64,000 nucleotides of DNA from Bacteroidota bacterium. GTDB lineage: Bacteria > Bacteroidota > Ignavibacteria > Kryptoniales > JAKASW01. The notes under the pieces are model-generated. The model searched no databases. It saw only the letters and a list, made by a program, of their open reading frames with translations, and was not told where the DNA came from. Below, one piece after another: positions 4,756-8,944 of the stretch. Made by a program: the position numbers and the translations under genes. Within the stretch, counting starts at the first letter, position 1, and every line of letters begins with the position of its first letter. The stretch is taken from positions 7,280-71,279 of the forward strand of contig JAKAMG010000005.1 in NCBI GenBank assembly GCA_021812985.1, in the 5' to 3' direction.

Positions 4756-7017
4756 TCATTCTAAGAATGATCCGAACTCGATCTCCTGCTGAACTTCTCT
4801 TCTTTGTCGCCTATTCTTTGCCGGCTTCGTCTCGAATTTATATCCCAAAGGTTCTAGCAGTATCTCGACAGATTTCAAAGTAATCTCCGCATACTTCTCG
4901 ACATCGTAACCGTCTTCAGGCCTGTAAAAAACAAACGGTTTCGCCTTGACCGGATTTTTCTTTCCCGTGTGATCGACGATGATATATTCCGCCGTCTCGC
5001 CGGGTTTCAGCGCGACACCCGCCTCGGCCATCGCACGCGACACGACCGCCTGCATGCTGTTGTTCTCGTACTCGTCGGCGTCTTTCGATATCGTATGCCT
5101 CACGACAAGTTCAAGCGGAGGAACGCGCCCGCTCCTCAGTATCTCGAGATGATATTTGACAGTCCCCATTATCTCTGGGATAAGGAGCTTCAGCCCTTCC
5201 ACTCCCGGCGCCTTCGCCATCAGCGCTATTACTTCTCCCTGAACCTTCCGCGTGAAAAGGGGTATGTCTCCACGCCTGACTTCTAGCCCGCGCACTTTCA
5301 CCTCGCCGTTCGTGTACGCGCCCACATACCTGTTCGCAGTCGGTATCTCCCCGTCCATCCTCGATGATGGGAACAATATCCACTTATATATTCCCTCGAG
5401 GGAGATCGTCACCCCGATCTCTTCCTTTATAATTTCACAGAGATGCCTGTAATCATCTTCCGTCGCCCCTTCCTTCTTCAGCCAGAGGCAGTCGACAATC
5501 CCATGCAACACCGAGTACCCCCTCTCCTCGGCAATCCTCTTTGCGTGAAGGAGCGCCTGGCGCGAGAAAGCGTTGACTGACTCGTGCGCCTCTATCCTCC
5601 CGAAGCGTGCATTCTTGTAACCGAGATAGCCGAAGCATGTCACGAGGAGCCATTTCAACGCTGTCTGCCGCTTGTGATACTCGTTCTTGGTCGCCGCGTC
5701 GGCCGCGGACTTTTCCCTCTTCTTGTATTCGGCTCTTTTTTTCAATACGGCGCCGAGCGTCTCGGCCACGATTCCTCTCCTTCGTTCGCAGATAGTGTAG
5801 CCAAGCTCCGGAACGATATGGTTGTCGCAGCAGCCACAGTTTATCGTCTCTGGCGATATGTTGTGCATTGCCATGAGAGACGGATACATCGACGCGAAGT
5901 CCAGCTCGGCAATCTCCTCATGATATCCCTTTGTCGGTAGAAAAATCAGCCCTCCCCTGTCGGCAAGAAGAAGCTCCGACACCGTCTTGAACTTTTCCCA
6001 CTCCTGCTTCTTGGCCGGTATGAGTATGTCGTGACGGTACGCCCAGGCGAGCTGCATCGAAGAGAGGCCGGTCCCGATGCTCGTCCTGGCCTGCTGCTGT
6101 ACCGGGATGCAGGTTATCCTCGATAGGTCGAGGAGGCCGGAAAGATCGGACTGATCCATGATGAATGAGTTTTCCGTGTCGATGTGCCACCTCCCGGCGA
6201 GCTCGAACGCGCCGGCGCGGTGGACGATCTGGCCGTAGCTCCAGTAGCTCACTTCCGCCGTCCTGATGTAATCTGCAGAAGCATCGCGGTTGAACTCGAG
6301 CGGGATACGAGTCTTCCTCGACAGGTCTGCGAGAAGCGGAAAGAGCGTATAGTCGCCGTATCGCGATAATATCACGTCAGGGTCACACCTCAATATGTGC
6401 GCGTTCAGCCTCGTCAGGAGCTCCTCGCTGGTCTCGGCTTCGAGTGTATACTCACGTCCGTCGTATCCCGCCTCGAGCGTTATGATTCGCTGGTACTTCG
6501 GCTGTATATCCGAGCGCGACGGAGCGATCGTCATGACATTAAGCGGCGGTATGGCGTAATCGATCGCATCGAAGCTGTCTTCAAGTTCGACCGAGACAAG
6601 CCTGTTGTCGTCGACGAACGAATAAACGCCGAAGGCGAGCGGGAAAAGATTTTTCTCGTAGAGGAACATCTGGGACGGAGTGAGGTCGGAATCGAAAAAG
6701 ACGTAATACGGGAATTCGGACTCGAAGCGCCGGACTATTTCCCTGAAATGGAGAGTATCCGGAACGGAGATCTCCACCACGGGTATCCTTTTACCCGAAT
6801 AGATCTCCGTTTTCTCCACCCATCCCTCTGTCACGAAGCATCGGAGTTTGACGGCGAGCATCTCGGCACGGCGGCGGTCTGCGCCCGCAACGTTCAGGTA
6901 AAACCTCGGCATGAACGGGGCGTGGCCACGGGTCTTCACACCGTCGCCGTCGATTATCCAGAAAGTTATCCCTCTGCTTGAAGGATAGAGATCAAACAGC
7001 CAGCCCTGCTTCTGCAT
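4756..7017 (-). CDS. Family B DNA polymerase with degenerate active-site motifs (PolB2-like)
   Basis: A 753-aa B-family polymerase with N-terminal, exonuclease-like and polymerase domains in the usual order. Motif A is intact (DFASMYPS, residues 373-380). Motif B keeps K455 but reads VTCFG where KxxxNSxYG is expected. Motif C reads HGIVDCLW (505-512), so the first Asp of the usual DTD is Ile and only D509 remains. In the exonuclease domain the DxE position reads TLE (180-182), and the second and third motifs are not recognisable, so proofreading is probably lost. This pattern matches the PolB2 group described in archaea, which lack canonical catalytic residues and for which a damage-bypass role has been proposed (recalled knowledge). 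GGGAAG lies 6 nt before the ATG. It follows the 96-aa protein, RecA-like and LexA-type genes on the same strand. Ordinary Pol II is excluded by the motif losses. Confidence 0.85.
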   Translation of the reverse strand: MQKQGWLFDLYPSSRGITFWIIDGDGVKTRGHAPFMPRFYLNVAGADRRRAEMLAVKLRCFVTEGWVEKTEIYSGKRIPVVEISVPDTLHFREIVRRFESEFPYYVFFDSDLTPSQMFLYEKNLFPLAFGVYSFVDDNRLVSVELEDSFDAIDYAIPPLNVMTIAPSRSDIQPKYQRIITLEAGYDGREYTLEAETSEELLTRLNAHILRCDPDVILSRYGDYTLFPLLADLSRKTRIPLEFNRDASADYIRTAEVSYWSYGQIVHRAGAFELAGRWHIDTENSFIMDQSDLSGLLDLSRITCIPVQQQARTSIGTGLSSMQLAWAYRHDILIPAKKQEWEKFKTVSELLLADRGGLIFLPTKGYHEEIAELDFASMYPSLMAMHNISPETINCGCCDNHIVPELGYTICERRRGIVAETLGAVLKKRAEYKKREKSAADAATKNEYHKRQTALKWLLVTCFGYLGYKNARFGRIEAHESVNAFSRQALLHAKRIAEERGYSVLHGIVDCLWLKKEGATEDDYRHLCEIIKEEIGVTISLEGIYKWILFPSSRMDGEIPTANRYVGAYTNGEVKVRGLEVRRGDIPLFTRKVQGEVIALMAKAPGVEGLKLLIPEIMGTVKYHLEILRSGRVPPLELVVRHTISKDADEYENNSMQAVVSRAMAEAGVALKPGETAEYIIVDHTGKKNPVKAKPFVFYRPEDGYDVEKYAEITLKSVEILLEPLGYKFETKPAKNRRQRREVQQEIEFGSFLE

Positions 7018-7076
7018 TTACACTTCCCGGTGTGACATTATTTCATCGGGTTAAACCATTACACATATAATCGTTC

Positions 7077-7181
7077 TCTCCGCGTCTCTCTTTCTTTTCT
7101 CCGTGGATCTCTGTGAAAGATTTTGTCCTGGGTGAAATCATTACACAGAGTGACGCAGAGAAGCACAGAGTCACACAGGGA
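7077..7181. repeat. Imperfect inverted repeat of the CTCTGTG/CACAGAG type
   Basis: Between the 96-aa gene and the polymerase gene, a pyrimidine-rich arm (7077-7120, with CTCCGCGTCTC and GGATCTCTGTGAAAG) faces a purine-rich arm (7138-7181, with CACAGAGTGACGCAGAG and CACAGAGTCACACAGG). The reverse complement of the second arm aligns with the first with several mismatches. Related fragments occur at 8163-8232 and 8945-9130, so this looks like a dispersed, structure-forming intergenic repeat family. No coding potential is seen. Confidence 0.6.
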
Positions 7182-7472
7182 TTATTTTTCCGCGTGTTTT
7201 TCCTCATGTGCAGCCAGCCGTATCTCCAGCTCCTCAACACGCTCCTGCAGGGACGCGGAACGCTTTCTTTCCTCGAGGAGCATTGAGATTACTATATTCT
7301 CGAAAGGTATCGGGTTAACCGCATATGCACAGGCGGCGAGATGTATCTTCGGCGCGCGGAAAAGATCGTCCAAGAGTTCCTGATCCTCCTTCCTCAGCGC
7401 CTCGCGGAACTTGCTCCACCTCGACTCCTGTTCGCGTATGACCATCGTAAATGTCGGCACAGTGCGTCCCAT
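7182..7472 (-). CDS. Small helical protein starting MGRTVPTF, linked to PolB2
   Basis: A 96-aa protein with no signal peptide or membrane segment. The N-terminus MGRTVPTF is followed by a charged helical stretch (RWSKFREALRKEDQELLDDLF). The C-terminal third (from about residue 66, LLEERKRSASLQERVEELE) is heptad-like and probably a coiled coil. It begins 3 nt after the RecA-like stop codon, with GAGGTG about 5 nt before its ATG, so it is almost certainly cotranscribed and perhaps translationally coupled. From memory, small archaeal proteins starting MGRTxPT are found beside PolB2 and RecA-paralogue genes; this link is not checked. It could be a subunit or recruitment factor of the polymerase (inference). 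No enzymatic motif is visible. Confidence 0.8.
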   Translation of the reverse strand: MGRTVPTFTMVIREQESRWSKFREALRKEDQELLDDLFRAPKIHLAACAYAVNPIPFENIVISMLLEERKRSASLQERVEELEIRLAAHEEKHAEK

Positions 7473-7475
7473 AAA

Positions 7476-8114
7476 TCACCTCAAGAGCCTTCTCTCCCTG
7501 TTCCATGCGATGTCTCCGTAAGAGTTTCCGCTCACTTCATAGACATCGTCAGCCATCGCCTTCATGCGCTTATAAAAGAACTGTCGCTGCTTCTGTGCCG
7601 GGATAAGATTCTCAGAAGCAATGAGTATCGACACCCCGCTCCTTTTCATGACGCTGAATCCTGCGCTTATGCCGGCAAGGCTCTTCTCCGCCTCCCTGAC
7701 AGATATTTGCTCGTCGTAAAACGTGTGGAGAAGCCCGAGCACTATCAGGACTTTAATTTCGGCCTCTCTTACGAACGCCCCGATCCCGCGCGTCAAGAGC
7801 CCGTCCATCTGGAATGCCGTGAACACCCTGGATAGATAAACCCTGTCGAGAACGTCCGATGGCTCCCTCCCGTCTATCTGCGCCATCCTCGCGAGTCCAT
7901 ACGCGTCAAACCTGTTTGCGCCGTCGACCACAGCAACGCTCGGAAGCCGGCGGAGGACTTCCTTCATTACGACGAGGGATGTATAGTAAACCCGTGAAGA
8001 GCCGTACAGAAGGACCGTCTTGCCCGGCATGACAGCTCCGATATCGCGCGACAGTTCTTTTGTCAGGCTCCGATGATCGATATTTCGATTTTCGTTCAGT
8101 GACGGATACCGCAT
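7476..8114 (-). CDS. RecA/Rad55-like protein with degenerate P-loop
   Basis: A 212-aa protein with the outline of a RecA/RadA-type ATPase core. The strand LLYG at 35-38 leads into SSRVYYTS (39-46), where a Walker A GxxxxGK[ST] would be expected; the Gly-Lys pair is absent. A VDGANRFD segment (63-70) matches the position where RecA-fold proteins have an acidic nucleotide-sensing residue. A hydrophobic strand at 120-130 (IKVLIVLGLLH) is in the Walker B position but lacks a clear terminal acidic residue. ATP hydrolysis is therefore doubtful, and a structural, DNA-binding or polymerase-recruiting role is more likely (inference). It sits between the LexA-type gene and the 96-aa/PolB2 pair, parallel to ImuA in lexA-imuA-imuB-dnaE2 cassettes. 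No signal peptide. ATP-independent accessory function is a guess from context. Confidence 0.75.
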   Translation of the reverse strand: MRYPSLNENRNIDHRSLTKELSRDIGAVMPGKTVLLYGSSRVYYTSLVVMKEVLRRLPSVAVVDGANRFDAYGLARMAQIDGREPSDVLDRVYLSRVFTAFQMDGLLTRGIGAFVREAEIKVLIVLGLLHTFYDEQISVREAEKSLAGISAGFSVMKRSGVSILIASENLIPAQKQRQFFYKRMKAMADDVYEVSGNSYGDIAWNRERRLLR

Positions 8115-8162
8115 ATCGTATGACAGACCTTATCAAGGCTACACATACTAAAAAAGTTTCCG

Positions 8163-8232
8163 TGCCTTCGCGCCTCTGTGATTTGATTTACTTTCATCAA
8201 TTTCACAACGGAGACACAGCGGGACGGAGAAA
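8163..8232. repeat. Second copy of the CTCTGTG/CACAGAG-type inverted repeat
   Basis: In the 142-bp gap between the LexA-type and RecA-like genes, CTTCGCGCCTCTGTGATTTG faces TTTCACAACGGAGACACAGC in inverted orientation around an AT-rich centre. It resembles the repeat at 7077-7181. It may be a remnant of the same dispersed element. Because it separates lexA from the downstream genes, it could influence read-through (inference). Confidence 0.5.
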
Positions 8233-8256
8233 ACTTAACGCACGAACCTCCCGCAA

Positions 8257-8886
8257 TCATTTTTGCTTCTTCTCTTTATGCCCGGCTTCCTTGCCGTAAT
8301 TCTTGATAACGCTCACAACCTTCCCTATCACCTCGAAGCTGTCTACGGCCGGATCCACGACTATGGGTTCATGAAGAGGGTTTTCAGGTTTCAGCACAAT
8401 CTTCTTCCCCTGACGCCCATACCTTTTGACGGTCACGCCATCCTCGACACGAGCGACAACGATGTCATTGTCCCGGACGTCCTGCACTCTTCTGAAGAAC
8501 ACCACCGAACCATCCGCGATCCCCGCGTTTATCATGCTGTCGCCGACGACGTAAATGCCCCTGTCGCCTGTCCTCAAGCCAAGCGTTGCGCGCGCGTCAA
8601 AATACTCCTTCGGGTCTTCATCTACGATTCTCGGCATGCCGCCCCTTGCCGCGGCGTAAATTGGAATACGGCTTTCCTTCCTGGTTACGCGCAGCACACG
8701 AGAACGCCCCGCCTCCCTCCTGATCAGGCTCTTCCTCTCGAGTATTCTCAGGAGCTTCTGGACAGCGCCTATCGTCACGCCGATTGCGGTGCCTATCTCG
8801 CGAAAACTCGGCGCATAGCCGTTCTCACGCGTGAATTCCTCGATAAAATCGAGCGCCTCTTTCTGCCGGTCGGTTATTTCTTTCAT
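8257..8886 (-). CDS. lexA: LexA-type transcriptional repressor (S24 self-cleaving)
   Basis: A 209-aa LexA-family repressor. The N-terminal winged helix runs from TDRQKEALDFIEEF to about residue 65, with the recognition-helix region around SFREIGTAIGVTIGAVQKLL. The C-terminal S24 protease domain has the serine in VVGDSM (S117) and the lysine in GVTVKR (K154), so the catalytic dyad is intact. The usual Ala-Gly cleavage segment is altered to AAARGGMP (78-85), so cleavage would fall at a Gly-Gly or Arg-Gly bond, or the site has shifted. The start at 8886 is chosen because GGAG lies about 8 nt upstream and the protein then begins at MKEITDRQ like other LexA proteins; an upstream in-frame codon at 8916 would lie inside the operator. 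A palindrome in the leader suggests autoregulation. It heads the RecA-like/PolB2 gene row and may control it. Confidence 0.88.
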   Translation of the reverse strand: MKEITDRQKEALDFIEEFTRENGYAPSFREIGTAIGVTIGAVQKLLRILERKSLIRREAGRSRVLRVTRKESRIPIYAAARGGMPRIVDEDPKEYFDARATLGLRTGDRGIYVVGDSMINAGIADGSVVFFRRVQDVRDNDIVVARVEDGVTVKRYGRQGKKIVLKPENPLHEPIVVDPAVDSFEVIGKVVSVIKNYGKEAGHKEKKQK

Positions 8887-8907
8887 TTTCCCGCTCCACT
8901 TTCTTGT

Positions 8908-8925
8908 GGTATACAAATGTATACC
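8908..8925. promoter_or_regulatory. Candidate LexA operator, palindrome upstream of lexA
   Basis: GGTATACAAATGTATACC is a 7+7 bp perfect inverted repeat around a 4-nt AAAT centre, 22 bp upstream of the lexA start. Its position and symmetry suit a dimeric repressor site. No second full copy was found elsewhere in the window by eye. The sequence differs from the E. coli and Bacillus SOS boxes, as expected for a distant phylum. Confidence 0.65.
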
Positions 8926-8944
8926 TGCGGATTCAGAAAGTCAA

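Follow-up and report, generated by a model that had tools for sequence, protein, structure and literature searches.

The window is a 64,000-nucleotide stretch of a Bacteroidota genome (assembly GCA_021812985.1, contig JAKAMG010000005.1, positions 7,280 to 71,279). Within it, four genes lie in a row on the minus strand and encode a LexA paralogue, an inactivated RadA/Rad51-like protein (iRadA), a small protein (PPB2) and a family-B DNA polymerase of the PolB2 group. An earlier sequence-only reading had placed four such genes here and proposed a damage-inducible translesion cassette. All four are present, and the core of that proposal, a PolB2 translesion cassette under LexA control, is supported at the sequence level, where it survived both a phylogenetic tree and a comparison of gene neighbourhoods. 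We consider it highly probable that the row forms a bacterial cassette for a PolB2 mutasome and is switched by its own LexA. Observed directly are the identity of the genes, the motif changes, the conserved gene order and a putative operator that is conserved and genome-unique; extender activity, damage induction and a PolB2–iRadA–PPB2 complex are predicted by analogy with homologues. The features are as follows.

8916-8944, minus strand: sigma-70-like promoter of the lexA-led cassette (TTGACT at 8944-8939, a 17-nucleotide spacer, TACATT at 8921-8916)
8908-8925: probable LexA operator GGTATACATTTGTATACC, an 18-base-pair perfect dyad that overlaps the -10 element
8257-8886, minus strand: lexA paralogue, 209 amino acids with an ATG start; LexA DNA-binding domain and S24 peptidase (Pfam/NCBIfam)
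7476-8114, minus strand: iRadA, 212 amino acids, RadA/Rad51 fold (profile, Foldseek, alignment)
7182-7472, minus strand: PPB2 (arCOG07300-like), a small helical protein of 96 amino acids with an N-terminal MGRT
4756-7017, minus strand: PolB2-group family-B DNA polymerase, 753 amino acids (domain match, motifs, tree)

The iRadA and PPB2 genes are separated by exactly 3 nucleotides, as had been read from the sequence. The gap from lexA to iRadA is 142 nucleotides and that from PPB2 to PolB2 is 164 nucleotides. A single transcript across the four genes is plausible from this layout. Degenerate CACAGAG/CTCTGTG repeats occupy both long intergenic gaps (7042-7181 and 8130-8256), and the gaps of relatives have them too. 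A DNA search of the genome found no second copy of the 7042-7181 stretch, which lies between PPB2 and PolB2.

The first gene can be assigned to lexA with confidence. Its product scores 154.5 bits with TIGR00498, above the cut-off of 111, keeps the S24 serine (GDSM) and lysine (VKR), and is identified from its sequence as a LexA with a DNA-binding domain, a Ser-Lys dyad and a putative cleavage site. The canonical DNA-binding domain rules out the non-canonical, CI-type LexA of Bacteroidetes (PMC8565304). The palindrome noted earlier in the lexA leader is present at 8908-8925 and is kept in relatives. The leader carries the promoter TTGACT-N17-TACATT, an arrangement that recurs in all five lexA-cassette leaders of the genus, and the dyad GGTATACATTTGTATACC spans the second hexamer (TACATT). 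Dyads of this length were found in 9 of 1000 random 100-nucleotide stretches of the window. GGTATACATTTGTATACC is identical in three related species (genomes G002, G009 and G012) despite diverged flanks, and in each of these, as in the window's genome, it is the sole exact copy. G005 has the same promoter spacing and a different dyad, TACCCTACATTTGTAGGGTA, again perfect and genome-unique; both arms have altered together, as expected of a protein-bound operator. In G285 a dyad, GTATAAATAATTATAC, lies in the same region. GGTATACATTTGTATACC is thus, judging by its placement and conservation, a probable LexA operator over the promoter -10. Allowing two mismatches across the whole genome gave 52 sites against 49 in the control; counts are at control level, and therefore no wider regulon can be claimed. 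What seems to be new is a repressor with one predicted binding site in the genome, ahead of a PolB2 cassette.

Gene order was compared across the 22 intact PolB2 loci whose upstream sequence could be read. The row iRadA–PPB2–PolB2, on one strand and in this order, is found in 20 of them (the window and 19 further loci), so that the neighbourhood is indeed conserved in relatives, a point on which the earlier proposal had been open to refutation. The remaining two, in G011 and G270, are orphan PolB2 genes without the iRadA–PPB2 row. G011 also carries, besides its intact PolB2 with no adjoining iRadA or PPB2, a further PolB2 copy interrupted by stop codons (L032:4091-6388, L041:3791-5958). A lexA gene lies directly upstream in six loci, belonging to two families: those of the window's genome, G002, G005, G009, G012 and G285. 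Of 395 genomes sampled from the phylum, 16 gave PolB2 at E <= 1e-30, every one of them in the window's class, and the named relatives are Bacteroidetes metagenome-assembled genomes. The three genes also occur, in this order, in haloarchaea. The complete row, with MGRT in PPB2, is also found in two Leptospira LE1-type phage or prophage records (L044:3210-6970 and L076:4195-7259); in the former (KF114878) the deposited annotation misses the PPB2 start, and a SRAP gene follows the row. Among the viral contigs searched, the Leptospira-type copies and one fragment were the only matches.

The second protein had been described as RecA-like with a lost P-loop. A RecA-fold relative without a P-loop it is, with Walker A absent from the alignment, but its affinity is to RadA/Rad51 rather than to RecA. 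Alone, it gives just a marginal RadA match in Pfam and NCBIfam (E 0.0015), and a profile built from 14 of the RadA-like neighbours matches archaeal RadA at E 4e-7. Walker B and the RadA N-terminal domain are missing as well. A structure model of medium to low confidence (predicted local distance difference test, pLDDT, 54), used only to back the profile result, retrieved RadA/Rad51 alone among the 50 PDB matches listed by Foldseek. Sequence comparison thus identifies the gene as encoding an inactivated RadA/Rad51-like protein. Neither Pfam nor NCBIfam gives PPB2 a significant family match; the MGRT at its N-terminus is invariant in a nine-member alignment that includes haloarchaea and a Leptospira phage.

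The polymerase matches PF00136 (Pfam, E 2e-32), and in the NCBIfam search the PRK05761-type 'type B polymerase' models score E 2.8e-118, against 6.7e-18 or weaker for Pol II models. We aligned it with 18 other PolB2 proteins and five canonical PolB proteins. The altered catalytic and exonuclease motifs that the sequence-only reading had described are borne out. Motif C reads H[GA]I.D[CS] in all PolB2 rows, where the canonical enzymes have DTD; in the window it is HGIVDC against the YGDTDS of E. coli Pol II, with the first Asp of DxD replaced and D509 kept. Motif A is intact (DFASMYPS, its Asp being D373). The acidic residues of the exonuclease motifs are missing in PolB2, and nothing corresponds to the DxE of the canonical paralogue (LDIETYS), from which the 3'-5' exonuclease active site of the window's PolB2 is judged to be lost. 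A loop containing D353-R354 is conserved, and the motif preceding it is FKTV (343-346) in the window and FK[ST]A in most relatives. By sequence, the loop and the FKTV-like stretch agree with the motifs published for PPB2 contact and as RadA-oligomerisation-like. Among solved structures, the polymerase is matched best by archaeal PolB3-type enzymes (1e-49), and the next relatives are found on haloarchaeal plasmids and in Leptospira phages. An AlphaFold model of PolB2 from seven sequences was unusable (pLDDT 45). In a maximum-likelihood tree of 19 PolB2 and five canonical rows, which has long branches and leaves out PolB1 and PolB3, a split with support 100/99 sets PolB2 apart from both E. coli Pol II and the genome's own canonical PolB. 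Grouping with canonical Pol II, named beforehand as refuting, is therefore not what the tree gives, and the sequence evidence places the polymerase in the PolB2 group. The genome's canonical PolB (L002:1345-3654, contig 11) has intact DTD and exonuclease motifs, and most relatives have one; it may belong to G3, an uncharacterised group that has been reported for all Chlorobi.

Several observations weigh against a LexA-controlled PolB2 mutasome. The NCBIfam scores of the polymerase fall under the equivalog cut-offs. At the putative LexA cleavage site, Gly-Gly stands in place of Ala-Gly. Apart from a weak QEIEF at the PolB2 C-terminus, sequence inspection of PolB2 and iRadA found no convincing beta-clamp-binding pentamer, a motif that only some mutasome members have. 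The 142- and 164-nucleotide gaps leave room for further promoters. Finally, among the 20 loci of the class that have the triplet, just six have lexA directly upstream, and therefore LexA control is not universal.

The last two of these points bear on the alternative that survives best, in which lexA is independent and regulates only itself, and iRadA–PPB2–PolB2 is expressed from its own promoter outside the control of this LexA. The length of the lexA–iRadA gap is in its favour, no second operator copy was found before iRadA or PolB2, and some members of the class have the triplet with no neighbouring lexA. On the other side, six loci, from two families, have lexA and iRadA side by side on the same strand, no terminator-like site was found in the gap between them, and enrichment of lexA near bacterial polB2 has been reported independently (PMC11791011). 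We regard this arrangement as unlikely. It is less likely still that PolB2 lacks all catalytic activity and that its role at stalled forks, shared with iRadA and PPB2, is only that of a scaffold or regulator, as was first proposed for the group. In favour are the loss of both the exonuclease site and the leading catalytic Asp of DxD, and the fact that Makarova et al. 2014 (PMC4104785) termed the group inactivated. However, D373 and D509 are invariant in 14 of 14 aligned PolB2 proteins, which fits continued catalysis, and Sulfolobus Dpo2 works as an extender polymerase despite carrying the same substitution (PMC8764526). That the cassette is just a canonical Pol II (PolB/DinA) lying next to a lexA with no relation to it has next to no probability: it would be of the same polymerase family, and the E. 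coli Pol II gene belongs to the SOS response, but the separate clade and the missing DTD and DEDD exonuclease motifs rule this identity out, and the iRadA and PPB2 partners are conserved and the genome has its canonical PolB elsewhere, with DTD intact.

As a LexA-switched mutasome, the PolB2 cassette most likely works as follows. In the undamaged cell, the cassette LexA would bind the 18-base-pair dyad over its own -10 and keep lexA, iRadA, PPB2 and PolB2 off. Upon damage, RecA on single-stranded DNA would trigger self-cleavage of LexA, and the genes would be expressed, presumably together. A PPB2 trimer would then join PolB2, its MGRT arm reaching the active site, and iRadA would dock as a partner resembling a RadA filament. 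With these partners PolB2 would extend distorted primer ends past lesions without proofreading, acting as an 'extender'; for insertion, the genome's single DinB is a candidate.

The genome holds one DnaE, one Y-family polymerase (DinB) and one normal RecA. With a single DnaE and a single Y-family polymerase, there is therefore no ImuB–DnaE2 alternative. An ImuA–ImuB–DnaE2 cassette was accordingly rejected as a candidate; there is no second copy of either polymerase, and neither lies in this cassette. LexA genes number three. One forms a lexA–dinB pair (L075:1954-3958, contig 39) and is closely preceded by an operator of its own, AGTAGACCTATGTCTACT, which is perfect and unique in the genome. 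Another stands beside mraZ–rsmH–ftsL–ftsI (L074:3930-4580, contig 34); its S24 nucleophile Ser is changed to Ala and its Lys to Arg, the cleavage site is missing, and from these changes it looks non-cleavable. The unique operators before lexA–dinB and before the PolB2 cassette suggest a private switch for each bypass polymerase. A broader proposal, to which we give slightly less than even chances, is that the SOS response of this lineage is split into such switches. Two cleavable LexA proteins would each have one strong operator in the genome, over their own promoter, and would each head one cassette (lexA–dinB and lexA–iRadA–PPB2–PolB2); the third LexA, beside mraZ, has lost the peptidase residues, and the PolB2-linked LexA and its operator would change together between species. 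The pattern of private operators was not met in the literature searched, of which coverage was partial.

The system itself is already described. The sequence-only reading had taken it for a possible mutasome not described in this lineage and for a bacterial analogue of the archaeal PolB2 system; the kind was known before, and the analogy is not supported. The row lexA–iRadA–arCOG07300–PolB2 was described in Leptospirillum in 2014, with a damage-response complex proposed (Makarova et al., PMC4104785). Bacterial PolB2 operons, their gene order and the enrichment of lexA near polB2 followed in 2025 (Timinskas et al., PMC11791011), where the PolB2–iRadA–PPB2 complex, the PolB2 mutasome, is published as models only. 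With an identical row of these three genes in haloarchaea, and with published trees that favour one transfer from archaea to bacteria (PMC11791011), sequence evidence makes the cassette a homologue of the archaeal system, not an analogue. A 2026 survey counts PolB2 as group G2 of bacterial PolB. A text search of the literature on these terms combined gave no further relevant paper.

The closest counterpart is Leptospirillum ferriphilum LFML04_0990-0993, whose predicted operon includes lexA and whose four genes correspond in kind and order to those of the cassette, with the polymerase and RadA motifs likewise inactivated. It belongs to a different phylum, and the available part of PMC4104785 gives no LexA-operator analysis and mentions no additional LexA paralogues. 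The modelled mutasome (PMC11791011) shares the order iRadA–PPB2–PolB2, the MGRT arm, the D(K/R) loop, the lost first Asp of DxD, the lost exonuclease site and the lexA neighbour, but no clear clamp-binding motif was found in the window proteins. Sulfolobus Dpo2 belongs to the PolB2 group too, shows the same change in its active site (IID for DxD) and has RadA-like and small partner genes; its extender activity (PMC8764526) and its induction by damage (PMC7390963) are reported, but it is archaeal and not under LexA. The Leptospira LE1-type cassette (KF114878) has the complete row, but is phage- or plasmid-borne, with no lexA in front and the SRAP gene behind. In lexA–imuA–imuB–dnaE2, a repressor gene likewise heads a bypass-polymerase operon with a RecA-fold accessory protein, although the polymerases are unrelated and the window's genome lacks ImuB–DnaE2.

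The gain is therefore incremental, and the added detail is regulatory. With this cassette, the PolB2 mutasome is placed in one class of the Bacteroidota and in a genome that lacks DnaE2 and ImuB. LexA regulation of bacterial PolB2 operons has so far rested on gene neighbourhood, and the predicted unique operator offers a simple, direct test of it. Species with differing operators at the same place would further permit a test of whether LexA and its operator have changed together.

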